A stretch of DNA of 22,244 bases from positions 1 through 22,244 of the IMG/VR virus record IMGVR_UViG_3300032397_000092; one strand, given 5' to 3'. Both the position numbers and the translations under genes were made by a program. Below the pieces are notes generated by a model, which ran no database searches, was not told the DNA's origin, and saw only the letters and a list, made by a program, of their open reading frames with translations. Source of the stretch: a virus. Below are positions 699 to 19,587 of the stretch, piece by piece (the first letter of the stretch is position 1; every line of letters begins with the position of its first letter).

Positions 699-3600
699 TT
701 ATACATCTATTACTGATGATGCAGTTTCAAAAGTAAGTGTACAATCTAACGCCACCATAGAAGTTTTAAACAATCCCGTGAGTTCATGATTATACGTAAG
801 TGCATCGTTTAATATATTAAAAAATATTTTATTAATAACAGAACTTGGAAAACTCTGATAGATGTATGTCATACTGATATCTATATTTAGTGCTGTATTA
901 AAGTTATAATTCTCAAGGAAGTTTTCTTTATTTATTGTTTGTAAATCAGAATTAGAATCCTCAAGTTGATTAATCAATGAATCAAATATTATATTCTTTG
1001 GTCCAATTGCTTGATCGGTACCAAACCCATATTTTGTAGTTGTGTTATTTGTTTTATCAAATAATACTCTACTTAATGATGGTATTAAATAATTAACATC
1101 TTGTAACTTATTTCCTAATATAGTTTCGGTAATTTTATCCCACATAAACCGAGGAATTATAGAAATATCATTTTCTCTAAATACTTTCCATTCATTATGT
1201 TTATTTTTCAACATAGCATTTGAATTATCAAGTTGATCCCTAAGTGTACAATCTCTTGTAAATTGTAGCTTATATCTATTACCTTCATTAATATCATACG
1301 ATATATTATTAACGATACATTGATCATATCGATTTGGCAGTGTACTATTATCATATAATAAATGTTGATAAAAAACATAAGGAATTTGTGGAATGTTGAA
1401 CATGTGTTTAACATCTAAAACAGATAAATTATGTTTGTTTCTATTTGTTCTATTTTTAACCCAAAAATAATAGGTAAATACTCGACTATTTCCACTCTCA
1501 TCAAGTTTAAATGTAGATGTATACGGAAGTACTTCATTATAACGCAATAAAGCGGTATCATCTTCGGCCAATTGTGCTATTTCTGCAGATAATGGTACTT
1601 TTGCGTACTTAACAACTCGTAATATTGAACTTGAAGTTACTCCAGTTGATGTAATATGGGTAATCACATTATTAGAATCTTGTACAATAATAAAGTTTGT
1701 AGTTATCTGTTCATTTATAAAAACACTAAATTTATCTGATATTGTGTTAATATTCTGACTAGTAACATCAATAGTAATTGCATTATTAATAATTTCATAA
1801 TCATAACCCTTAAAAATTAAATGTGTATCAATAACTGGCAACCACTCATTCCATACATCATCTGTAGTTAATCTTGTAGTATAAAATAATTGTGAATACA
1901 CTTCACCTGTGTGTTTATCTTTTTCAGATATTATAGTGTTATTAACATCAGCTAATACAAGTTGATCCCACATTAATGGTATAACTGGAGATTCAACCCA
2001 CTCATACACTTCAATGCTACTCCACTCAGGTACGTCACCCCAAGCAAACAATCTATCATTAATAGTGGGATATAATCTAAAGTCTGTATATGGTACATAA
2101 CCTAACATAGATATGTTCATCCATACTTTACCAACTTCAGTAGAATTCCATGCACTATATGATATATCATTTGGTGTGGTTGCAATAATAGACTTATATT
2201 GTGCAGGATCTGATGTTGTGAAGTAATCTACCATAAGGTTAACATTTGTAGGGTAGTGACCTCGTATTGGATCCCAAATAGGTAATTCTTTAGTGACAAC
2301 ATTACTTTTAGCGTCTATTAATTTACAATCACTTATTTTTGATTTAGCTGGATTTAATAAAAATATTGTTAATACTGGTACTGTGTTTTCGTTTGTTATA
2401 TCTATTAACATTTCGATTAATGTTGTACTTAATTGTTTATATTGACCATTTTGAGTATCAGTATGTTCTTTTAATATCGCTCGTTGTTTAATAACAGTAA
2501 CAGAAGTATGAGGAATAGAGTTTAATAATATAGTACTGCTATTAACTTCTTGGTAATTGTTATATACATTACCATCAACATATAGTATCAAATTATTTAC
2601 CCCAAGTATATACACATAGGGTAGAGTTATAATAGTATTAATAGTAAATGATGTTATAATATTATTAATCTTGACTGTAATTACCCCATAGTCGAGCACG
2701 TAAGGTGTTGATAACACTATACTTGTTGATAATGTATTATTTGTAATAGTTGATAGTATGTTATTTGTATATACAGTTATAGTATCTGCACTTGTATACT
2801 TAGTTGGTATAGTTATCGTAGGGCCAGATACAGTAAAGGTAACACTGATTGTTATATTAGCAGCGTTGGTAACATATACTTCTAGATTTGTATATGTTTG
2901 TTGTAGTACAATTATTGTATTTGTTTCATTAAACGCAGAGTCTATAATTGTACACGGTGATTTAATCGACACCACAACATCATCAGTTATTTCAGGGGTA
3001 GGTATTATAATTGTTGATGTTGCATTTGCTATATCTGCAACTTGTGTAGTGTTATTATCAACAAATATTTGAACGCCATCACACACATCAACTTCAACAT
3101 ATTGATGTGAGTCGTTTATAGCATTAAATGCAGATGTTTTAATTCTCGTATTTAATGGATTTATTATATCTAAATGATTAAATGTTAGTGCACTTGATAT
3201 TTCAGCATCAAAGTATAGTGCATTATGTATTAAATAATCAGCATCTGGTAAATTATCCCACCTATCAACATCCGTATTTGTGATTTTGGTGAAGTATAAT
3301 TCAGGTGTAGTTACATCATACGTATTCATAAATTGATATCTTGCAGCACCTCTAACCATATCTGATAAAAATACATTAATAGCAGGTTTGATTTTAGTTC
3401 TACTATCTCCAAATTCAGACACTTTATATGCCCAATATTCGTCGATATTTGCATCTGTTAACAATCTTGAATTAGTAAGAGCAGAAATAGCTGTATTTGC
3501 ACCTTTGTGTTGAATCATACCTCTCCAAAATATAAATTTGGATTTTTTATTAATTCCTAATAAATCTAAATATGCTGGTTCTTTATATCCCAACAATTGT

Positions 3601-6600
3601 CTTGCGTATTCAATATGATCTGCAGTTTCATCAGACTTATACACATCATAATAATTTTGTAGATTAGTAGTAGCTGATTCTATATTTTCAATCATAGTAC
3701 CATCGATTAAAAAGTAACCACCCAGGTTTGGTCTTCCTGTTATTTCATAATGCTTATTAAATAATGTATGTATTTTACTTACATTTAATCCAATATATGG
3801 ATCATATATTAAATTGCCATCTATCGTATAATTATTAAATGTGATAATATGTTCATATAGGTCACTAAACAAATGCATTCCACCCAGGTGTAGTTCTTTT
3901 TCTTCAAATGGTATATCAGCTGGTTTTGGATACGTTATATACGTTGTAGTGTCTTCTCTAAAAATCTTTAAATTATCAATAGACAGTATAGGATCTCCAT
4001 ATTGATCATAAACAATAGGTTGAGCGGTAATATCTGCATACGGGCCTGATATAATATTTGATATTATGCCTTGTTTTGGGGAAATCCATACATCATATCT
4101 AAATGGGTTTAATTCATGTACATCATATACAGATATAAGTTGTTGAGTGTGTATATCAAATTTTGTATTAAACCCTCTCCACACTTTATCTATAAACTTT
4201 TCAAGTTCTGTTTGCCAGCTCACCAATAACCCAGACTCAATATCAACACTCGTTCTTGAATAATCATTAAACACAAATCCTTGACTTTGTAAGTACGCAG
4301 AGTATCCATCTATAAAATTAATAATGCTTTGTATACCAGTAATTATAGTTGGTGTTATTACTGGAATTATTCTCGTTGGGTTAATTGTGTAATGCATCCA
4401 TGTATTAGTACAATTAACTTTGTCGAGTGCATCAAATGTGGTATATTGCTCATACACTTGTACACCTGTAGATAATAATAATCTAATAGTTAATGATGGA
4501 TGAGCTGGATCAAAATTTAAACCATTGATAATTTGGACCCATCCATTTGCATAGATAACATAATCAGTATGTTCTATTAATAGTGTATTATTATAATACA
4601 TGCGCAAGTTAATGGCGTCGGTATTAGTAGGTAGTCTAAATACATGACTTGATGAGCTATATATTTGCCACGATTTTGTTAATTTATGATACTGCTTAAA
4701 TACAGGATTACCGATACCGTCATTATATGACCATATATCAAGATCCATAGGGGCTACCGGGGGTACAGTGTCATTTAGTGTGATTGTATGATTAATAGTA
4801 TCATACACGGTTATATCATTATTTCGTGCAATCCCATCAACATACGCCGACGCCAATTTAAACGTAGTTGGTGTTTCAGATATTAAGTAATATGGTGCAC
4901 TATTCTTAATTCCTTTTATATTAGACGTTAAAGCTATTTGAGTACCATCAGTCCAAGGTGATGATTTATTAATAGTAATCACGTTAGTAATATCATTTAC
5001 ATTTACAATAGAATAATTATTAACATCATATACATTGATGTTAGTATTTGGATTAACTGGTACATCTAATCTAAACTGCCAATCATCACCGTTCCCGATA
5101 GGTATTAGTACACCTGTGGTAGTGCGTTGTGATATGCCTGCTTGATATAGCGATACCATAATTGAATTTAACCAATTATCATACACACCAGGCGATTTCT
5201 TAAGATGTGTTGTATAATCTTGATTACTTATTTGGTAATAATCAGTACCTAATATTAAAGACTTTGCATTAACAATAGAATTCGTTTGATATGTAAGTTT
5301 AACATCCCAATCTCTCCACATTGTCGTAAAATCAGATATGTATATGTCGTACCCTTTAGATCGTATTGCATTAACATACCATTGATTTATACCATTAATA
5401 GATTGTGTTGTATTACCAATTACCATCCCATGAAATGAAGTATCTTTATGAGATATTACTTTTTTAGTTTGTTTTTCAATTTGTAATTTATTAATTTCAT
5501 AAAACTCTAATCCAAAAGCTTGTTGTATGAATTTTACTGGTTGTATAATAAACGCAGCAGACAATATACTATATCTAAAGCTAGACGAATCTCTCCACAG
5601 TCTTTCAGCTGGACCTTGTTGTCCAAATTCATAACTTGCTGATATTGCAGCTTGTATACCAGGGGTTAATGTTGTATATGATACAATCGTATATGGTTGT
5701 AAATTAACATTAGATACATAAGGTGGTAGCAAGTCATCCGGTGCGTACGTATCAATAGTAGTACCAGAAATATTAACACTAATATGATCATTATATGTTG
5801 GTATAATTGTTGTTAATTGTGGGTTAACGTTTATTATATTGCCTGATTGTATATTATCCCACATAATAGCCTTCCACCTACCACCATTTGATGTATCTGC
5901 GTATAATGTATCCCAGTTTATAGGCTTCTCAAGATACCCTTGCATTTTCCATGGTTCAAGATGCGGATATGATGTATTATATAATTCTTTATATATGGTA
6001 TACCATCTTGATCCCCAACCTGTACCTACATTTGGTCTATTAATGGTTACATCTGCAATTTCTGGCAGTGTTGTGTAATTCCAAGTCCACGAATCAGCTA
6101 TATTATAATCTGTATAGAAAATGTTAATGTTATGCACTTTTGTATAATTAATGTATTCTTTGTATAATAAATTAACATATGTGCTTGCAGTAGTTATATT
6201 ATATAAATTATCATAGTCAATTTTTAATATATCAACATTTTCACACTTATTATACAATTTAGTTTCGATAGCCAATATAGTTTTAGATATAACTTGATTT
6301 ATATCAACCAACTGCCAAGCAAGTGATTGATCGACAACAACATCCCACCCTATAATAGCGTGTGATCTAACATATAGTGTATTCGTTGTATCATCGTACC
6401 AATATACACCATATGGTGTAGTGTTAGCTGGATATGCATGTTGTATCGCTATTACATTATATTTCCATAATTGTTTAGTTGAAGTATTATACCAAAAAGT
6501 ACCATTATTTAATCCATGAATGCTTGGTTTATTTCCTGTACCAGATGTACCAGATGAATTTAACACACGCTTAATAATTTGACCAATTTCTACATCTGTA

Positions 6601-9545
6601 AATCTATTATCAGAAAAGTGCCCATCATGATGTAATATATGAAATAATTGTAGTTTATCATCTATCAACAATTGTGGTTCATGTTTTTGTGCAAATTGTA
6701 ATATTGGTAATGTTGCTATCCAATTAGCAACCCCAGCTTTAGTAATTGAATCATACGCAGTAGTATCACTAAATACATGAGTTAAATTATCGTTATTTTG
6801 TAACTTTAATAATATAGTATCAGTAACAGTTTGTTGCAAATCAATAATTGCTTCAATAGATATATTAGCAATGATTTCTGGAATAGTAGACAAAAACATT
6901 TCCTTTATCATCAATATATTATTTTCATATTGTTGTTGAGCGTATTTAATTAATGTAGGTGGTGTGATTATATTTTGATACATTGCAGATAAAAACATAT
7001 CATAACATCCGTTATGTTCTTTTATAGTACCACCCAAACCAAAGTTAACTCTATCTAATAATTTATATTGGTTTTGTTGAGGGATAAAATCAAAAGAAAC
7101 AGGATTGTTATTTATATCAAACACTGGTATATTTTGTGATTCAATAATAGTATTAAAGTGTTTATATAGATCAGTATATGAAATATTAGTTCTATTTTCA
7201 TGTTGTGCATTATAGTACAACTGATCAGGAATTTCCCAAGCCCCAGCTGGATCACCAAGTGGTAGTGAAGTGGTATGAGAATTACCTACTGCATCTAAAT
7301 AGGTTTCTCCGTCAGCCAATCTATATTCATTTACATACTTTGGTACATATTCTTCATTATTAGCACCTTTTTGCCAAATCGTGTGTAGTCCGTCTATATT
7401 ATCAATAGATGTGTTATCGTAGTCTTTATAGCAATACATCTCTCCAGTTGTGCTATTCGACAATAATTGTTGAAATATATAGTTTCTACCTTTATTTAAT
7501 ACAGAGATTCTTTTATTAACTCTACTATCAACAGCATTTGTTGATTTCTCTTCATACTGAAATATACTATTAGCTTGATATGCAGTGGTTTTATCTACAT
7601 TATAAATATCAAATAGCGGATATTGTGTGTGTTGTAATTTTACTTGTTCGTGTTTCTTGAATCGTACTAAACTTGTTCTAACCATTCCTGTTGGTGTATT
7701 TACCCATATTAATTCTCGACCAATATCTAATGAGCAAGGTACACCAGATCTCAATTGAATAATATCTCCAGTTTTTAATGTACTTAAAATTAATACAGTG
7801 TTTGAATATTCAGTATTAGTTTGAATTTCTTCATAGTTTCCATATTGTCGAATGCCATTTATGTATACTTGCAAATCATCTAATCCATACAAATAATTAA
7901 ATGGGTTAGATGTTCCTATTGCATTTTTAGGAACATCATTATATGATGTATAAAGCACTTCTCCATTAAAATAAGTAGACACTCCATTAACTGTTGTAAC
8001 ATAAGTAATAGGGTCAATTGTAGTTGGGTTTATTAGTATATTATTAGTTAAGCTCAATCCAGATCTATTCCACTCTGTATCTAACCCTTCGTCGTACGCA
8101 TCAACATCAAATCCATTAATTGACATTATTACAACATATCGTTGTTGTTTTAAATTTGGTATTTGATGGTTCACTGGGACAGCATCACTCGCCCCGCCCC
8201 ATCTCCAATGAAAATAGAATCCCTTCCACGTATCTCCTAAACTTGTGGTAGTAAGTGGAACAATCACACCAATATTAACATTATACCCCAAGTACTCATT
8301 GCTGCTATATGGTACAGTGTTGTTCATACCAGGTGCTTCAATAATAACTGCATCATTAACATATATAATCGTGTATAAACCATTTGCAGACAATTCTGAA
8401 TGTTGAGTAGTTTTAGCACCATTATTATCTATAGTATTAGCAACAGTAAACATATACCCGGTTATAAATAATGCAGTCACATCACCCGATACAACAAATA
8501 CTACATCTCCAGTTGGGGTTCCTACGTATGTAGTATCTTTAGATATATTGACAATATTATATCTAACACTGCATTCATTAAGTGTAGGTTCAGTATCTAC
8601 ACTATCCCAAGAATCAAATGTATCTTTTCGGTATAGCCAATTTTGTTTAGTATAAGTCCACTCATTCAATTCTAAATTAGCATGATATTCAAGTATTGGC
8701 ATTGTAGCTTGAATACCTATTGCTGTGTGTGGTAAGTCAGACTCGTGTACCCATTTATTCTCAAAGGCCCACTCACTTATAACATGTACATTATCTGTAT
8801 CCCATTCGTTTGTACCTTGTGGAGCTTCAACTGGTATAACATGATGTGTATCATCATACCCGACAGTTTCCCAAATGCTTAATGGATCCCAATCTCCACT
8901 ATTATCATCCCATAATGCTACATCAAATCCTACGTGTTTATTTCTAAGCTGCTGCTGCAACACAAAATATTGATTGATAGTATTCTTAATTGCTTGTAAT
9001 TCAGAACTTAAAGCATTTGCGATTGTTCTATCACTAAGATACCTTTGTAATTCTAATAATTTAGAATTAACGGTATTAAATTGATTTTCAATTGTAATAT
9101 ATTGAGGAGTGGTTTTTCCTGTTGTATCATACCAATAATAATTATTATAATTAACTAATTTATCTATGTTAACAGGTGGTGCGTAATTAAATTGAAGTGC
9201 ATTTCCCCAACTGGGCAAATGATCAATATTAACCCCAAGTTGTTCTAACTTATTTAATATATCATAATATGATGTAATATGATCAATTGTAGCAATTTTA
9301 GAATACAATAATGGTTGTAATTGCCATGCTTGTCTATGAGCATCAGTTTCTGTTATTCTATTGGTGTTCGGAATATTTGGTTTCTTTAATCCTATAGCAT
9401 TATCAACATAAACGGTATCTGGTTTTGTCAATAACCTATTTTCAGCATTATTTAAAACAGATACATTAATATCTGTTTTAAATATGTCGGGAAATAATTC
9501 TTCAATTTGTATTCTGGGTTTGCGATAATCAAAATTATCCGTCAT
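699..9545 (-). CDS. Giant baseplate/tail virion protein (2948 aa)
   Basis: A single uninterrupted frame encodes about 2948 residues, far larger than any T4 baseplate protein. The ATG at 9545 is preferred over a GTG three codons upstream (9554), because a GAG-type ribosome site lies 8 bases before the ATG. It follows gp6, where T4 places gp7-gp12, so it may combine wedge-periphery roles; this is inference from position. Visible elements are a conserved N-terminal part (about 1-140), the motif YYWYDTTGK near 138, paired WYNTSTKQLW and WYDDTTNTLY motifs near 1017 and 1047, a beta module LQVYINGIRQYGNY near 558, and five tandem repeats of about 32 residues between about 2209 and 2350. The C-terminal part contains EVYEWVES and YYFWVKNRTN, which I associate from memory with large structural proteins of marine T4-like phages. 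There is no signal peptide, membrane segment or recognised enzyme domain. A late-box variant lies 30 bases upstream. Confidence 0.9.
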   Translation of the reverse strand: MTDNFDYRKPRIQIEELFPDIFKTDINVSVLNNAENRLLTKPDTVYVDNAIGLKKPNIPNTNRITETDAHRQAWQLQPLLYSKIATIDHITSYYDILNKLEQLGVNIDHLPSWGNALQFNYAPPVNIDKLVNYNNYYWYDTTGKTTPQYITIENQFNTVNSKLLELQRYLSDRTIANALSSELQAIKNTINQYFVLQQQLRNKHVGFDVALWDDNSGDWDPLSIWETVGYDDTHHVIPVEAPQGTNEWDTDNVHVISEWAFENKWVHESDLPHTAIGIQATMPILEYHANLELNEWTYTKQNWLYRKDTFDSWDSVDTEPTLNECSVRYNIVNISKDTTYVGTPTGDVVFVVSGDVTALFITGYMFTVANTIDNNGAKTTQHSELSANGLYTIIYVNDAVIIEAPGMNNTVPYSSNEYLGYNVNIGVIVPLTTTSLGDTWKGFYFHWRWGGASDAVPVNHQIPNLKQQRYVVIMSINGFDVDAYDEGLDTEWNRSGLSLTNNILINPTTIDPITYVTTVNGVSTYFNGEVLYTSYNDVPKNAIGTSNPFNYLYGLDDLQVYINGIRQYGNYEEIQTNTEYSNTVLILSTLKTGDIIQLRSGVPCSLDIGRELIWVNTPTGMVRTSLVRFKKHEQVKLQHTQYPLFDIYNVDKTTAYQANSIFQYEEKSTNAVDSRVNKRISVLNKGRNYIFQQLLSNSTTGEMYCYKDYDNTSIDNIDGLHTIWQKGANNEEYVPKYVNEYRLADGETYLDAVGNSHTTSLPLGDPAGAWEIPDQLYYNAQHENRTNISYTDLYKHFNTIIESQNIPVFDINNNPVSFDFIPQQNQYKLLDRVNFGLGGTIKEHNGCYDMFLSAMYQNIITPPTLIKYAQQQYENNILMIKEMFLSTIPEIIANISIEAIIDLQQTVTDTILLKLQNNDNLTHVFSDTTAYDSITKAGVANWIATLPILQFAQKHEPQLLIDDKLQLFHILHHDGHFSDNRFTDVEIGQIIKRVLNSSGTSGTGNKPSIHGLNNGTFWYNTSTKQLWKYNVIAIQHAYPANTTPYGVYWYDDTTNTLYVRSHAIIGWDVVVDQSLAWQLVDINQVISKTILAIETKLYNKCENVDILKIDYDNLYNITTASTYVNLLYKEYINYTKVHNINIFYTDYNIADSWTWNYTTLPEIADVTINRPNVGTGWGSRWYTIYKELYNTSYPHLEPWKMQGYLEKPINWDTLYADTSNGGRWKAIMWDNIQSGNIINVNPQLTTIIPTYNDHISVNISGTTIDTYAPDDLLPPYVSNVNLQPYTIVSYTTLTPGIQAAISASYEFGQQGPAERLWRDSSSFRYSILSAAFIIQPVKFIQQAFGLEFYEINKLQIEKQTKKVISHKDTSFHGMVIGNTTQSINGINQWYVNAIRSKGYDIYISDFTTMWRDWDVKLTYQTNSIVNAKSLILGTDYYQISNQDYTTHLKKSPGVYDNWLNSIMVSLYQAGISQRTTTGVLIPIGNGDDWQFRLDVPVNPNTNINVYDVNNYSIVNVNDITNVITINKSSPWTDGTQIALTSNIKGIKNSAPYYLISETPTTFKLASAYVDGIARNNDITVYDTINHTITLNDTVPPVAPMDLDIWSYNDGIGNPVFKQYHKLTKSWQIYSSSSHVFRLPTNTDAINLRMYYNNTLLIEHTDYVIYANGWVQIINGLNFDPAHPSLTIRLLLSTGVQVYEQYTTFDALDKVNCTNTWMHYTINPTRIIPVITPTIITGIQSIINFIDGYSAYLQSQGFVFNDYSRTSVDIESGLLVSWQTELEKFIDKVWRGFNTKFDIHTQQLISVYDVHELNPFRYDVWISPKQGIISNIISGPYADITAQPIVYDQYGDPILSIDNLKIFREDTTTYITYPKPADIPFEEKELHLGGMHLFSDLYEHIITFNNYTIDGNLIYDPYIGLNVSKIHTLFNKHYEITGRPNLGGYFLIDGTMIENIESATTNLQNYYDVYKSDETADHIEYARQLLGYKEPAYLDLLGINKKSKFIFWRGMIQHKGANTAISALTNSRLLTDANIDEYWAYKVSEFGDSRTKIKPAINVFLSDMVRGAARYQFMNTYDVTTPELYFTKITNTDVDRWDNLPDADYLIHNALYFDAEISSALTFNHLDIINPLNTRIKTSAFNAINDSHQYVEVDVCDGVQIFVDNNTTQVADIANATSTIIIPTPEITDDVVVSIKSPCTIIDSAFNETNTIIVLQQTYTNLEVYVTNAANITISVTFTVSGPTITIPTKYTSADTITVYTNNILSTITNNTLSTSIVLSTPYVLDYGVITVKINNIITSFTINTIITLPYVYILGVNNLILYVDGNVYNNYQEVNSSTILLNSIPHTSVTVIKQRAILKEHTDTQNGQYKQLSTTLIEMLIDITNENTVPVLTIFLLNPAKSKISDCKLIDAKSNVVTKELPIWDPIRGHYPTNVNLMVDYFTTSDPAQYKSIIATTPNDISYSAWNSTEVGKVWMNISMLGYVPYTDFRLYPTINDRLFAWGDVPEWSSIEVYEWVESPVIPLMWDQLVLADVNNTIISEKDKHTGEVYSQLFYTTRLTTDDVWNEWLPVIDTHLIFKGYDYEIINNAITIDVTSQNINTISDKFSVFINEQITTNFIIVQDSNNVITHITSTGVTSSSILRVVKYAKVPLSAEIAQLAEDDTALLRYNEVLPYTSTFKLDESGNSRVFTYYFWVKNRTNRNKHNLSVLDVKHMFNIPQIPYVFYQHLLYDNSTLPNRYDQCIVNNISYDINEGNRYKLQFTRDCTLRDQLDNSNAMLKNKHNEWKVFRENDISIIPRFMWDKITETILGNKLQDVNYLIPSLSRVLFDKTNNTTTKYGFGTDQAIGPKNIIFDSLINQLEDSNSDLQTINKENFLENYNFNTALNIDISMTYIYQSFPSSVINKIFFNILNDALTYNHELTGLFKTSMVALDCTLTFETASSVIDV
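2490..2925 (-). repeat. Five degenerate ~32-residue tandem repeats inside the giant protein
   Basis: Five successive units begin near residues 2209 (TIIVLQQTY), 2242 (TITIPTKYT), 2275 (IVLSTPYVLDYG), 2305 (ITLPYVYILG) and 2337 (ILLNSIPHTS), a spacing of 33, 33, 30 and 32 residues. Most units then carry an alternating strand such as LEVYVTN, ITVYTNN, ITVKINN or LILYVDG. The repeat is visible in the protein and not obvious in the DNA, so it is old. A stacked beta-sandwich or fibre-like arm is the likely structure (inference). Confidence 0.6.
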
Positions 9546-9575
9546 AGTGTACACTCACAAATTTAGCTATAATGT

Positions 9576-14632: not shown

Positions 14633-15241
14633 TTAATTCATCTCCTTAAACCAAGTAGTATAATCTCCAGGAAAATTCTTTGGTGTGTATATGTACTGTA
14701 TGTCTGCTTTTATAAAGAATTGAATATAGTACAATTCACTGTATTCTATAATAGTATGTTGATGTATAAAATGTGGACCACTTGGATATAATATTAAAGT
14801 ACCTCGTTGTGGATTGAATCCAAATTGATGTTGGGGAAATTCTAACTTTCCACCATATACTTCAAATGCACTGTCAAATGGCGATTCGTCATTGTAATCT
14901 GATAATGCAATATATCCAGATATATCCCTTGGAAATATTTGTACCCATTTTCCATTCATGTGTTTGCTACTATCACTTTGAGGTGGGTTAGTAGCACCTT
15001 CGTGTAGTTTATATAGAGCCGGAGGTGTTAAATCTAATAAATTAATATCATAATGTGATGAAACCTCATGAATTATATCATTAACTTTTTCAGTTATTAA
15101 TGAAGTTAAGTCAACTTTTGGTTGTAACAAATATAATCCATCATCTTCATTTATTATTTGATGATTAGTAATCAAATCATTGCACATTAATGGTGATATG
15201 AAATTTGGAATAATATAAAACGGACTTTTAGTGTCACTCAT
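14633..15241 (-). CDS. 2-oxoglutarate/Fe(II) oxygenase-fold protein (prolyl-4-hydroxylase-like), possibly inactive
   Basis: The protein has 202 residues from the ATG at 15241, four bases after the upstream stop. A GTG at 15265 would overlap that gene and is less likely. The core is typical of phage prolyl-4-hydroxylase-like proteins: NGKWVQIFPRDISGYIALSD (about 96-115), GGKLEFP (130-136), NPQRGTLILYPSGPHFIH (143-160). Such enzymes bind iron through an HxD pair and a distal His. The position where HxD is expected reads PPQSDSS (86-92), so the first His seems replaced by Gln88. Distal His candidates H157, H160 and H162 are present, but no Arg is seen in YYIQFFI, where the 2-oxoglutarate-binding Arg often lies. 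It is probably a virion or morphogenesis protein given its coupling to gp5. Fold confidence is good; activity is doubtful. Confidence 0.82.
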   Translation of the reverse strand: MSDTKSPFYIIPNFISPLMCNDLITNHQIINEDDGLYLLQPKVDLTSLITEKVNDIIHEVSSHYDINLLDLTPPALYKLHEGATNPPQSDSSKHMNGKWVQIFPRDISGYIALSDYNDESPFDSAFEVYGGKLEFPQHQFGFNPQRGTLILYPSGPHFIHQHTIIEYSELYYIQFFIKADIQYIYTPKNFPGDYTTWFKEMN

Positions 15242-15245
15242 ATAG

Positions 15246-16124
15246 TTAACTCTGTAAACGTTCACATATAGCTATAGTATCAAGTTTAGTCATTGATAGT
15301 ATATCACGAAAAGACACATTTGGATATTTTAACATCACTTCTAATATCTCTCTCGTTTCATTTTCTTGTTCTTTACTATTATCAACTACCGTTTCTGATT
15401 CTAGAGCAATAGTTTCATTTAATATATTATGTACCAACTGAATACCATTTTCAGATATAGATGGATCAATAACAAGATCGCTTTTTGATAGTAAATTCAT
15501 ACCGATTAAGAATTTATATTCCATATGTGTTCTATCATTTAGATTAACCGCAACATCTGAAGTTAGATGTCCATTTATTTTTACATTAAATAATACTGTT
15601 GGCCTGTATTCTATACCACCATCTGCAGTTTGTACAGATACCATACTATCAACTTTCATAGTATAATTGCGTTCATTGTATGTAAATTTAACTTTTTGTG
15701 ACTCAGGATCAACATCACTTTTTGTAATGTGAATGTCAGATACACCTAAACTGCAACAATCCGCCCCAGTATCTATTTTACTTTCAATTGGTTCATTTTG
15801 ATTAATCCCCATAATAGTCGCATCAACATGTATACCCATTGCATTATATTGCCCGTGTTCTTCACTTTCTTGTAATGTAATAACATCAACCGGTGTGTAT
15901 CTATTATTTACTCGTTCTAATACAACAACATGTGAATTATCATTACATTCATATACAATAAATGGGGGAGAATGAATACCTTTTAATATATCTATAATAT
16001 TTGGATTATATTCATATATTAGCTTATAATGATTGTCTTCATCTTGTAATGTTGTTGGTAGGGTTTCATTATTTTCAGTTAGTGCTGCATTAATTGATAA
16101 TATTAAGAAATCTTTAGTTGTCAT
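15246..16124 (-). CDS. Retropepsin-like aspartic protease (PF05618-type)
   Basis: This 292-residue protein carries an aspartic-protease core: ESKIDTGADCCSL (114-126) with the DTGAD active-site loop, a beta segment ending IEYRPTVLFNVKIN (171-184), then NDRTHMEYKFLIGMNLL (196-212) and DLVIDPS (216-222). The order DTGA, RP, DRxxMxYxxLIGxxxL, IDPS is that of the family once called ATP-dependent zinc proteases, now described as retropepsin-like. These act as dimers with one Asp per chain, which fits the single DTG here. The N-terminal 100 and C-terminal 70 residues are extra and were not recognised. It is the first gene of the baseplate operon, with an AGGT ribosome site and a late box 29 bases upstream. 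Processing of a structural protein is the natural guess, but the substrate is unknown. Confidence 0.8.
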   Translation of the reverse strand: MTTKDFLILSINAALTENNETLPTTLQDEDNHYKLIYEYNPNIIDILKGIHSPPFIVYECNDNSHVVVLERVNNRYTPVDVITLQESEEHGQYNAMGIHVDATIMGINQNEPIESKIDTGADCCSLGVSDIHITKSDVDPESQKVKFTYNERNYTMKVDSMVSVQTADGGIEYRPTVLFNVKINGHLTSDVAVNLNDRTHMEYKFLIGMNLLSKSDLVIDPSISENGIQLVHNILNETIALESETVVDNSKEQENETREILEVMLKYPNVSFRDILSMTKLDTIAICERLQS

Positions 16125-17391: not shown

Positions 17392-18053
17392 TGGTATATA
17401 ATCACACTCCTGTCAACTTGTCAGAGCTTGAATCAAAGCAAATTAAAAAACTTAGATGGTATATAACACCGTCTGGTGATCACTATCCATCAATTACTTC
17501 AATTCTTGGATATGGTCCAAAACCATGGCTTGATGATTGGAGACAAAGCTTAGGAGCATCAAAAGCTGATATTGAAACAAAAAGATGTGCTGATAGAGGG
17601 ACAGCAGTTCATGAAATATGTGAAAAAGTATTAAATAATCATCCAAATCCAACATTAGGGCATGAGCATGAGCATATCTTATTGTTTAATAAGATAAAGT
17701 TAGCACTACCAAAGATAAACAACATATTAGCACAAGAGATTGCATTATATAGTGATACACTAGGTATTGCAGGTAGAGTTGATTGTATTGCAGAATACAA
17801 AGGAATACCATCAATAATTGATTTTAAAACATCTAATAATTTGAAAACTGATGAAATGATTCAAGATTATTATATGCAAGAAACTTTTTACGCTCTTGCA
17901 TTTTACGAACTTACTGGCATAGAAATAACTCAAATAGTAACAATTATTGCAGTTGAAAAGGGTATGCTTCCTCAAATTATGATTAAGTCTATATACCCAT
18001 ATATTGTACCTCTATCTAAAAAAATAAAGTTGTTTTATGATAACTACAATTAA
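17391..18053 (+). CDS. RecB/Cas4-like PD-(D/E)XK exonuclease
   Basis: This 220-residue protein has the full set of PD-(D/E)XK motifs of RecB-type phage nucleases: RGTAVHEICE (69-78, His74), Glu116 in AQEIALYSDTLGIAGRVD, Asp131 in GRVDCI, DFKTS (144-148, Asp144 and Lys146), and QDYYMQETFYALAFYEL (158-174) with the conserved Gln and Tyr. All expected metal-binding residues are present, so it should be active on DNA. Homologues in T4-like phages are thought to act in recombination or DNA processing. Here it is coupled by a TAATG overlap to two coiled-coil genes under a late promoter, within a structural region, which points to a late role such as genome processing at packaging (inference). Its stop overlaps by four bases the stop of the convergent gp26 extension. 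Confidence 0.9.
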   Translation: MVYNHTPVNLSELESKQIKKLRWYITPSGDHYPSITSILGYGPKPWLDDWRQSLGASKADIETKRCADRGTAVHEICEKVLNNHPNPTLGHEHEHILLFNKIKLALPKINNILAQEIALYSDTLGIAGRVDCIAEYKGIPSIIDFKTSNNLKTDEMIQDYYMQETFYALAFYELTGIEITQIVTIIAVEKGMLPQIMIKSIYPYIVPLSKKIKLFYDNYN

Positions 18054-18286
18054 TAAACAGCATGACCTGCAGGTTTTTTAAGTTCTTCTTGAATTCGTTG
18101 TTCTAAAAATGACGCGATCATTTTCCGTTCTGGTACAGATATTTGCATAATTGTATGATATTGCATACTACCCCTCATAAAATAAGTTAACTCTATAACC
18201 TGTTGTATTATGCCTTCTGTCTCACTACCTAGTTGTGTTATGTACTCTTGTATTCTTTCTGATGATTCGTGTTTCAATAATCTAAA
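18050..18286 (-). CDS. C-terminal extension of gp26-like protein reached by -1 frameshift (78 codons)
   Basis: This frame continues from the T run at 18284-18292 for 78 codons (FRLLKHESSERIQEYITQ...). It has no usable start of its own. The next upstream ATG (18376) lies about 100 bases inside the gp26-like gene, and the first internal ATG would leave only about 42 residues. The end, ELTYFMRGSMQYHTIMQISV then PERKMIASFLEQRIQEELK, looks like a small helical domain of tail-assembly proteins. A -1 slip on TTT TTT joins it to gp26 as a product of about 336 residues. Alternatives are a sequencing loss of one T in the run (one long gene) or an independent short gene. Confidence 0.72.
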   Translation of the reverse strand, partial: FRLLKHESSERIQEYITQLGSETEGIIQQVIELTYFMRGSMQYHTIMQISVPERKMIASFLEQRIQEELKKPAGHAVY

Positions 18287-19059
18287 AAAAAAGTTAGAGG
18301 ATTTAATGGAATCTCTACTGTCATAATTTGTTGACAGTCTATACAAGTAATTGTATGATTTGAATCTGGTCCCCAATTATTCCCAACATCAAGTGCATTT
18401 GATATTTTTTTAAACCAAGGCGCTGGTATTTTTGCAGCCCATGCTTTAATTTTATCCTTATCTGTTGTACCATCAACTGCATGAATAATGTTTATGGTAG
18501 ATTCAACTAATTTTTGTTGAATTTCATATAATGGTGTATTACTAAAATCTTTAGAATTTTGCATTATTGTGACGATATCTTTAAATCTGATTGGACGAAG
18601 TTCAACTAATTGTCCGTTTTCTAATATAACTGAATATAATGCTGTTATTGTAGTTGGATCAATACTGCGAGTACTATTAATTACTTCGGTGATATCAATA
18701 CTATATTTGTGATCTTTAGCATCTTTACACGTGTGCTTATATATAACATCAATCATTGGACCATATGTGATTCGTCTTAAAATCAATAATAATTGATCAA
18801 CATCTTTTCCAAATAATTCTGCTGGTTTTAATATTTGAGGAATACATCTTGTAAATACATCTGTAATAGATGTACCGTTGATAATATTATCAATATTGCG
18901 CATGGCGATCTCATCAAACGCACTCATCGGATATACCATGACTTCACCATTTTGTACAGTATCATCAAGTTCACCATTATCGTAAAATAGTCCCAATGAC
19001 GGTAGTCTTACGATTTCTCCAGGTATTTTGATATTATCAATTAATGAGTTTTCTGACAT
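18274..19059 (-). CDS. gp26: T4 gp26-like baseplate hub/tail-assembly protein (PF12322 type)
   Basis: This 261-residue protein matches the T4 baseplate hub assembly family: IVRLPSLGLFYDNGE (16-30), then GEVMVYPMSAFDEIAMRNID (38-57), the conserved start of these proteins, followed by helices with VFTRCIPQIL. A cysteine pair CIDC (239-242) near the end and Cys111 may bind zinc. The start has GGAATTATAAC before the ATG, and an exact late box 30 bases upstream. In T4 gp26 acts in hub formation with gp51 and sits in the same cluster as the tape measure; here the tape measure is also next door but on the other strand. The last codons run through nine T and stop soon after, with a -1 frame extension available. 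Confidence 0.87.
   Translation of the reverse strand: MSENSLIDNIKIPGEIVRLPSLGLFYDNGELDDTVQNGEVMVYPMSAFDEIAMRNIDNIINGTSITDVFTRCIPQILKPAELFGKDVDQLLLILRRITYGPMIDVIYKHTCKDAKDHKYSIDITEVINSTRSIDPTTITALYSVILENGQLVELRPIRFKDIVTIMQNSKDFSNTPLYEIQQKLVESTINIIHAVDGTTDKDKIKAWAAKIPAPWFKKISNALDVGNNWGPDSNHTITCIDCQQIMTVEIPLNPLTFFLDY
18284..18292 (-). promoter_or_regulatory. Slippery T9 run, candidate -1 programmed frameshift site
   Basis: On the coding (minus) strand the sequence reads ACT TTT TTT TTA GAT TAT TGA in the gp26 frame. Slipping back one base on TTT TTT gives TTT AGA TTA TTG and opens 78 more codons. T TTT TTT fits the X XXY YYZ heptamer. TAGAG and CTCTA just upstream could form a short stem; no strong downstream structure was seen by eye. 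Confidence 0.65.
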
Positions 19060-19188: not shown

Positions 19189-19587
19189 ATGACTATTTTA
19201 TTAACAATCGTATTACAATTATTTTTTGTTGGATTTATATCTACAATTAATGCAAAATCTCAAAAAACTAAAAGATATAATATGATAATGATGTGGACAT
19301 TCACCCTTATCACTATTATACCGACATATCAACTATCATGCTATCTTATATCTTGTCCATGGATTGGAGATGGTATTATAAGAGTAGGAGCTGCTGATGC
19401 TTACGATGCTATAGTTAGAAATATATGCTTACCATTGTTGCCTTTAACGTTTATGCTTATATATTGGATATTCTTATGTGATATTGGTACAAAAACAAAT
19501 CATATTAGTTTAACCTTATTGTATTTTGCATTTGTAGTAACAGTATTATTATGGGATTCTCAAATAATTCGTTCAATATTTGGTTGA
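19189..19587 (+). CDS. Small integral membrane protein, four predicted helices (132 aa)
   Basis: The ATG follows the ribosome site TTAGGAGATAATCAAA. Four hydrophobic segments lie at about 3-20, 32-55, 78-98 and 105-123. The loop between the first two is basic (NAKSQKTKRY), which by the positive-inside rule puts it in the cytoplasm and both ends outside. The stretch between helices 2 and 3 (about 56-77) holds CPWIGDGIIRVGAADAYDA. The family was not recognised. Holin, antiholin, superinfection exclusion or another inner-membrane role are all possible for a phage protein of this form, and nothing in the sequence decides. Its host-type promoter sets it apart from the late genes on both sides and suggests early or constitutive expression. 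Confidence 0.82.
   Translation: MTILLTIVLQLFFVGFISTINAKSQKTKRYNMIMMWTFTLITIIPTYQLSCYLISCPWIGDGIIRVGAADAYDAIVRNICLPLLPLTFMLIYWIFLCDIGTKTNHISLTLLYFAFVVTVLLWDSQIIRSIFG

Follow-up and report, generated by a model that had tools for sequence, protein, structure and literature searches.

Introduction

The hub assembly chaperones of phage T4 include gp26 and gp51, and gp51 is required for assembly and absent from the particle (PMC3004832). A passage of PMC10885494 citing Vladimirov et al. 2022 (doi 10.1016/j.virol.2021.11.003) reports that frameshifting is replaced in some T4-like phages by a pair of genes, one short and one longer and fused, and a passage of PMC12846349 citing the same work places poly-T slip sites in the chaperone genes of T4-like phages. 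A GTTTTT slip site was also described in two other families, Vandenendeviridae and Andersonviridae (PMC12846349).

The two-form chaperone of T4-like phages and the poly-T slip sites are already described, and the locus analysed here, which lies in a window of 22,244 nucleotides (the whole stretch of viral DNA under analysis), is, as far as the sequence goes, an added and well-supported case. We assign a probability of about 93% to the reading in which it encodes tail-assembly chaperones of the T4 gp26/gp51 type and a -1 ribosomal slip would yield a 336-aa long form beside a 261-aa short form. A short form and a minor -1 long form are likewise characteristic of lambda G/GT and of the chaperones of the Vandenendeviridae and Andersonviridae, and the latter two families share the poly-T slip site with the window (PMC12846349). 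The gene order of all these systems is unlike that of the window, and the likeness rests on the scheme and not on sequence homology.

The gp26-like gene and its slip site

Profile searches indicated that the gp26-like ORF matches PF12322 (9.9e-07; 29.1 bits against a curated cut-off of 24.5) and the baseplate hub family phrog_150 (9.1e-12). The positions of the ORF and of the associated features are given in Table 1. The AlphaFold model of the gp26-like protein reached a pLDDT of 86.6 and a pTM of 0.83. Foldseek comparison of this model and of the extension model with solved structures gave no significant match; the HK97 chaperone 2OB9 aligned to the gp26-like model with a TM of 0.49 on the 2OB9 length and a non-significant E of 3.9, a fold likeness that is a hint and not evidence.

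The final codons of the ORF are ACT TTT TTT TTA GAT TAT TGA, the stop TGA occupying positions 18274-18276. The original prediction had placed the end of this frame 11 bases after a run of nine T; the run was confirmed, but the stop ends 10 bases after it. The classic slippery heptamer expected in the gp26 frame, T_TTT_TTT (18292-18286), is indeed in phase and is overlapped by a second one, T_TTT_TTA (18289-18283), both being in slip phase 6-9 nt 5' of the 0-frame stop. The nine T and the open -1 frame are kept in L002 and L003, two IMG/VR contigs from other samples whose gp26 is 79% identical to that of the window. The T run near the 3' end of the gp26-like gene is very probably a real -1 frameshift site, from which a short and a long protein would be made from one gene; the fusion, foreseen at about 336 residues, was computed at 336 aa.

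Table 1. Features of the gp26-like locus, with positions in the window.
Feature	Positions	Strand	Basis
gp26-like short form, 261 aa, 0 frame	18274..19059	minus	PF12322, phrog_150, jumbo-phage relatives
Nine-T run with two overlapping slip-phase heptamers	18284..18292	minus	sequence; identical in L002 and L003
-1 frame extension, 78 codons after the slip (18286-18053) plus stop (18050-18052)	18050..18286	minus	dN/dS, homologues, profiles, AlphaFold
Predicted long form, 336 aa (gp26-like body plus -1 extension)	18050..19059	minus	in-frame counterpart T4 gp51

Relationship with T4 gp26 and gp51

The products of T4 genes 26 (208 aa) and 51 (249 aa) are both PF12322 proteins (8.8e-64 and 3.9e-52, respectively), gp51 being a full gp26 paralogue with an extra C-terminal tail, so that T4 has, as is predicted for the window, a PF12322 short form beside a long form that carries this tail. 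Comparison of extension profiles with the gp51 tail gave P 3e-9 for the cyanophage-type extension and P 8e-5 for the jumbo-type extension, to which that of the window belongs, and the two extension profiles matched each other at P 5e-5; none of the 20 shuffled-column controls was better than 0.07. The anticipated likeness to gp51 is thus found with the family profile, although it is weak with the window sequence alone. The small helical domain proposed for the extension was recovered by AlphaFold as an all-helical model (pLDDT 88.8), for which only small unnamed phage proteins were found in BFVD (best 6e-3). The extension is a helical domain and shares homology with the tail at the C terminus of T4 gp51.

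Because only the gp51 tail matches the extension, T4 gp26 is the counterpart of the short form and gp51 that of the long form, encoded as two genes, and the T4 proteins can be read simply as two forms of one chaperone. Because T4 gp51 is a gp26 paralogue of the PF12322 family with a short tail, the identification of the extension with the whole of gp51 was rejected. Of the frameshifted gp26-gp51-like pair in the original prediction, the G/GT-type frameshift stands, but the product would be gp26 with a gp51 tail and not gp26 fused to gp51. The link drawn there between T4 hub-assembly factors and the frameshifted chaperone scheme is upheld, and the T4 functions are, as stated there, encoded separately by genes 26 and 51, which have no slip site.

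Searches of whole records with phrog_150 and phrog_634 revealed one gp26 gene and an overlapping gp51-tail frame in S-PM2, P-SSM2, S-CRM01, HTVC008M, KVP40, phiM12, DLP6 and phiW-14, and two genes, with the long form in one frame, in T4, RB49 and RB43. The slip site is present in all those one-gene phages and absent from the short genes of T4, RB49 and RB43. Homologues with separate genes and no slippery run, which had been named beforehand as a possible counter-indication, do exist in these three phages, but the one-gene relatives carry the site. In contrast to the two-gene phages, the window has a single gene from which a -1 slip would give both forms. The cyanophages S-PM2 and P-SSM2 and phage KVP40 are like the window in having one gp26 gene, a slip site 5' of the stop (T_TTT_TTC in their case) and the tail in the -1 frame; phages of this type differ from it by a shorter extension and an upstream Shine-Dalgarno (SD)-like motif, while the window has the T9 run and no stimulator was found in it. 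In the jumbo-phage, S-PM2 and KVP40 records examined the long form is unannotated, and the extension is given as a separate gene or is absent.

Conservation of the junction in the gp26 family

Relatives of gp26 in jumbo phages were found by tblastn. The 10 jumbo-type phages inspected at the junction all carry T_TTT_TTT or T_TTT_TTC, with a -1 extension starting at FF, and a joined, frameshifted gene is annotated in none of their 10 records. A survey made of four IMG/VR scans and the named phages, with query patterns placed away from the junction, gave 203 readable gp26-family loci. The heptamer T_TTT_TT[CTA] was found in phase shortly 5' of the stop in 202 of them, which is the conserved slippery run with the same frame relation for which a check in related phages had been suggested. 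At least 40 open -1 codons follow the stop in 200 of these 202 loci, the other two being cut by contig ends.

The loci were reduced to 86 representatives less than 70% identical to each other (41 when less than 50%). Among the 85 representatives with the site, the codon preceding FF has T as its third base in every case (codon use would give 47), although it encodes eight different amino acids; TTT is the first F codon throughout (background 0.62), and TTC is the second in 71. These counts take related sequences as independent, and it is the size of the excess that matters and not the exact probability. Slippery FF pairs were 1 of 43 at internal positions versus 84 of 84 at the terminal one. 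Judged from these counts, the codon choice at the site far exceeds what an FF dipeptide requires. The slip site is near-invariant in gp26 proteins down to less than 20% identity with that of the window, and the scheme of a short and a long chaperone would be deeply kept across the family.

The sole exception in the survey is L167, where the gp26 frame reads C_CCT_TTA and T_TTT_TTC occurs in the -1 phase; an upstream indel and a relocated slip site would fit this equally. The 595-kb metagenomic phage LR756511 (L014/L042), which lies outside the survey, has GGC TTT TTC TTC, with no standard heptamer, and a TAATG start in its tail-like frame; its lineage may rely on reinitiation or on a different slip site.

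Stimulatory elements and the length of the T run

An SD-like motif 4-20 nt upstream of the slip site was found in 28 of 35 cyanophage-type loci (3.8 expected) versus 1 of 49 jumbo-type loci. The cyanophage-type motif (L027, L028, L030, L031 and others) is of the GAGG/GGAG type, is encoded by a conserved EGL(Q) and is a probable SD-like frameshift stimulator. Compared with control stretches taken from the same genes, the sequence 3' of the slip site folds more strongly (p 1e-5 and 0.002), and XacN1, L162 and L163 have strong downstream stems. In the window and L002, no SD-like stimulator was found and no downstream stem reached significance. Stimulators are usual, yet they are not obligatory for long U runs; we infer that the double slip site of the nine-T run compensates for the missing stimulators, or that transcriptional slippage contributes.

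Transcriptional slippage, in which a fraction of the mRNAs would encode the fusion through a base inserted by RNA polymerase at the T9 run, could act alone or together with ribosomal slippage. It is known in bacteria on runs of about nine, and it would suit the window, where the run of nine T is the longest of the set and ribosomal stimulators were not found. In 71 of 84 representatives, however, the run is only six T, on which the polymerase would not slip efficiently, and the heptamer has a fixed codon phase, which slippage by the polymerase does not need. We regard this explanation as improbable.

Coding capacity of the -1 extension

Estimation of dN/dS over the extension region gave 0.134 for the -1 frame against 0.82 and 2.87 for the other two, the value for gp26 itself being 0.127, and substitutions at -1 codon positions 1, 2 and 3 numbered 20, 8 and 32. 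By these estimates purifying selection acts on the extension in the -1 frame alone, at a strength like that of gp26. The 21 bases up into the stop codon are identical in the window and its relatives, while synonymous sites are near saturation. Homologues of the extension in the -1 relation were found by tblastn in XacN1, CM1/RAS14 and, weakly, Atu_ph07; profile search with the extension alone against families gave phrog_27001 at 0.011 and nothing else. The slip site, the frame relation and a selected, protein-coding extension are established at the level of sequence.

As annotated for gp51 of S-PM2, the extension could instead be a separate small protein made by reinitiation or from its own start after the gp26 stop, and many cyanophage-type loci have an ATG just past the stop. 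Against this, the first third of the extension lacks a start codon in 14 of 49 jumbo-type representatives, and SD matches occur at few starts. The 78-codon -1 frame of the window was predicted to lack a usable start, and its sole early start-like codon is in fact a TTG overlapping the TGA, without SD match and replaced by TTA in L002. A separate protein would moreover leave the conservation of the heptamer unexplained, and T4 gp51 has the tail fused in frame, which makes this alternative very unlikely.

The loss of one T from a continuous gene by sequencing or assembly error, the caveat attached to the original prediction since homopolymers are error-prone, has a negligible probability and is rejected for the family by independent relatives, because the nine T and the open -1 frame recur in L002 and L003, making three separate assemblies with the run, these relatives have a substituted 0-frame stop at the same position (TAA for TGA), and finished jumbo-phage genomes have the same break with six or seven T. 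A -1 stretch as open as that of the window occurred in 17 of 5000 dinucleotide shuffles, and a chance open frame is made untenable by conservation, seen in the nine T, the -1 frame dN/dS and the codon-position pattern; it is ruled out by the dN/dS together with the family survey.

Proposed mechanism and origin

Under ribosomal frameshifting the majority of ribosomes would halt at the TGA and release the gp26-like short form. A minority, with the P and A sites on UUU UUU or UUU UUA, would slip by one base in the 5' direction within the U run, read through the stop position in the -1 frame and append the 78-residue helical tail, giving the long form, and both forms would be produced in a set ratio. 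By analogy with lambda G/GT, the short form may coat the tape measure, and the long form may use its tail to recruit tail-tube or hub parts. The same two forms are supplied in T4 by separate genes, 26 (short) and 51 (long). Against this explanation we count the lack of a stimulator in the window and L002, a tape-measure candidate that is not downstream, the non-significant fold match and the deviations of L167 and LR756511.

A tentative extension of the ribosomal reading, to which we give somewhat less than even odds, is that the -1 frameshift is ancestral across the gp26 family, jumbo and metagenomic phages included, that the T4 pair arose by duplication with an in-frame long copy, and that the clade of the window swapped stimulators for the T9 double site, possibly with added transcriptional slippage. 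Part of this may already be contained in Vladimirov et al. 2022.

Gene order and neighbouring genes

The tape-measure candidate of the window (19639 onward) is a large, alanine-rich ORF with hydrophobic stretches and no cysteine, conserved in L002; family searches gave it no significant homology match. It is located upstream of the gp26-like gene on the opposite strand, in divergent orientation, and the next gene after the extension is a convergent exonuclease gene. The placing of the tape measure as the next gene, as in lambda, was wrong or imprecise, and because the candidate lies upstream on the opposite strand the lambda gene order does not occur in the window. The order in S-PM2 is tail tube, gp26 and gp51 tail, followed by an ORF of 1167 aa that has tape-measure and lysin-like matches, and that of KVP40 is similar, its large ORF having no assigned function. 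A chaperone gene between tail tube and tape measure on one strand is thus seen in S-PM2 and partly in KVP40 but not in the window, where the tape-measure candidate is divergent.

Between the gp26-like gene and the tape-measure candidate lies a 132-aa membrane-protein-like ORF (19189-19587, plus strand) with no family match. An ORF of 292 aa at 15246-16124 (minus strand) encodes a retropepsin-like aspartyl protease domain with the motif DTGA (PF05618, 1.8e-12; PF13975, 1.4e-05); it has no PHROGs match, and such a protein is unusual in a phage tail gene cluster. The adjacent ORF at 14633-15265 (minus strand, 210 aa) overlaps the starts of neighbouring genes and shows a weak match to 2OG-Fe(II) oxygenase (phrog_61, 0.0024). 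Positions 699-9554 (minus strand) encode, from a GTG start, a virion structural protein of 2951 aa (phrog_10938, 2.2e-66), which is very large for one structural gene.
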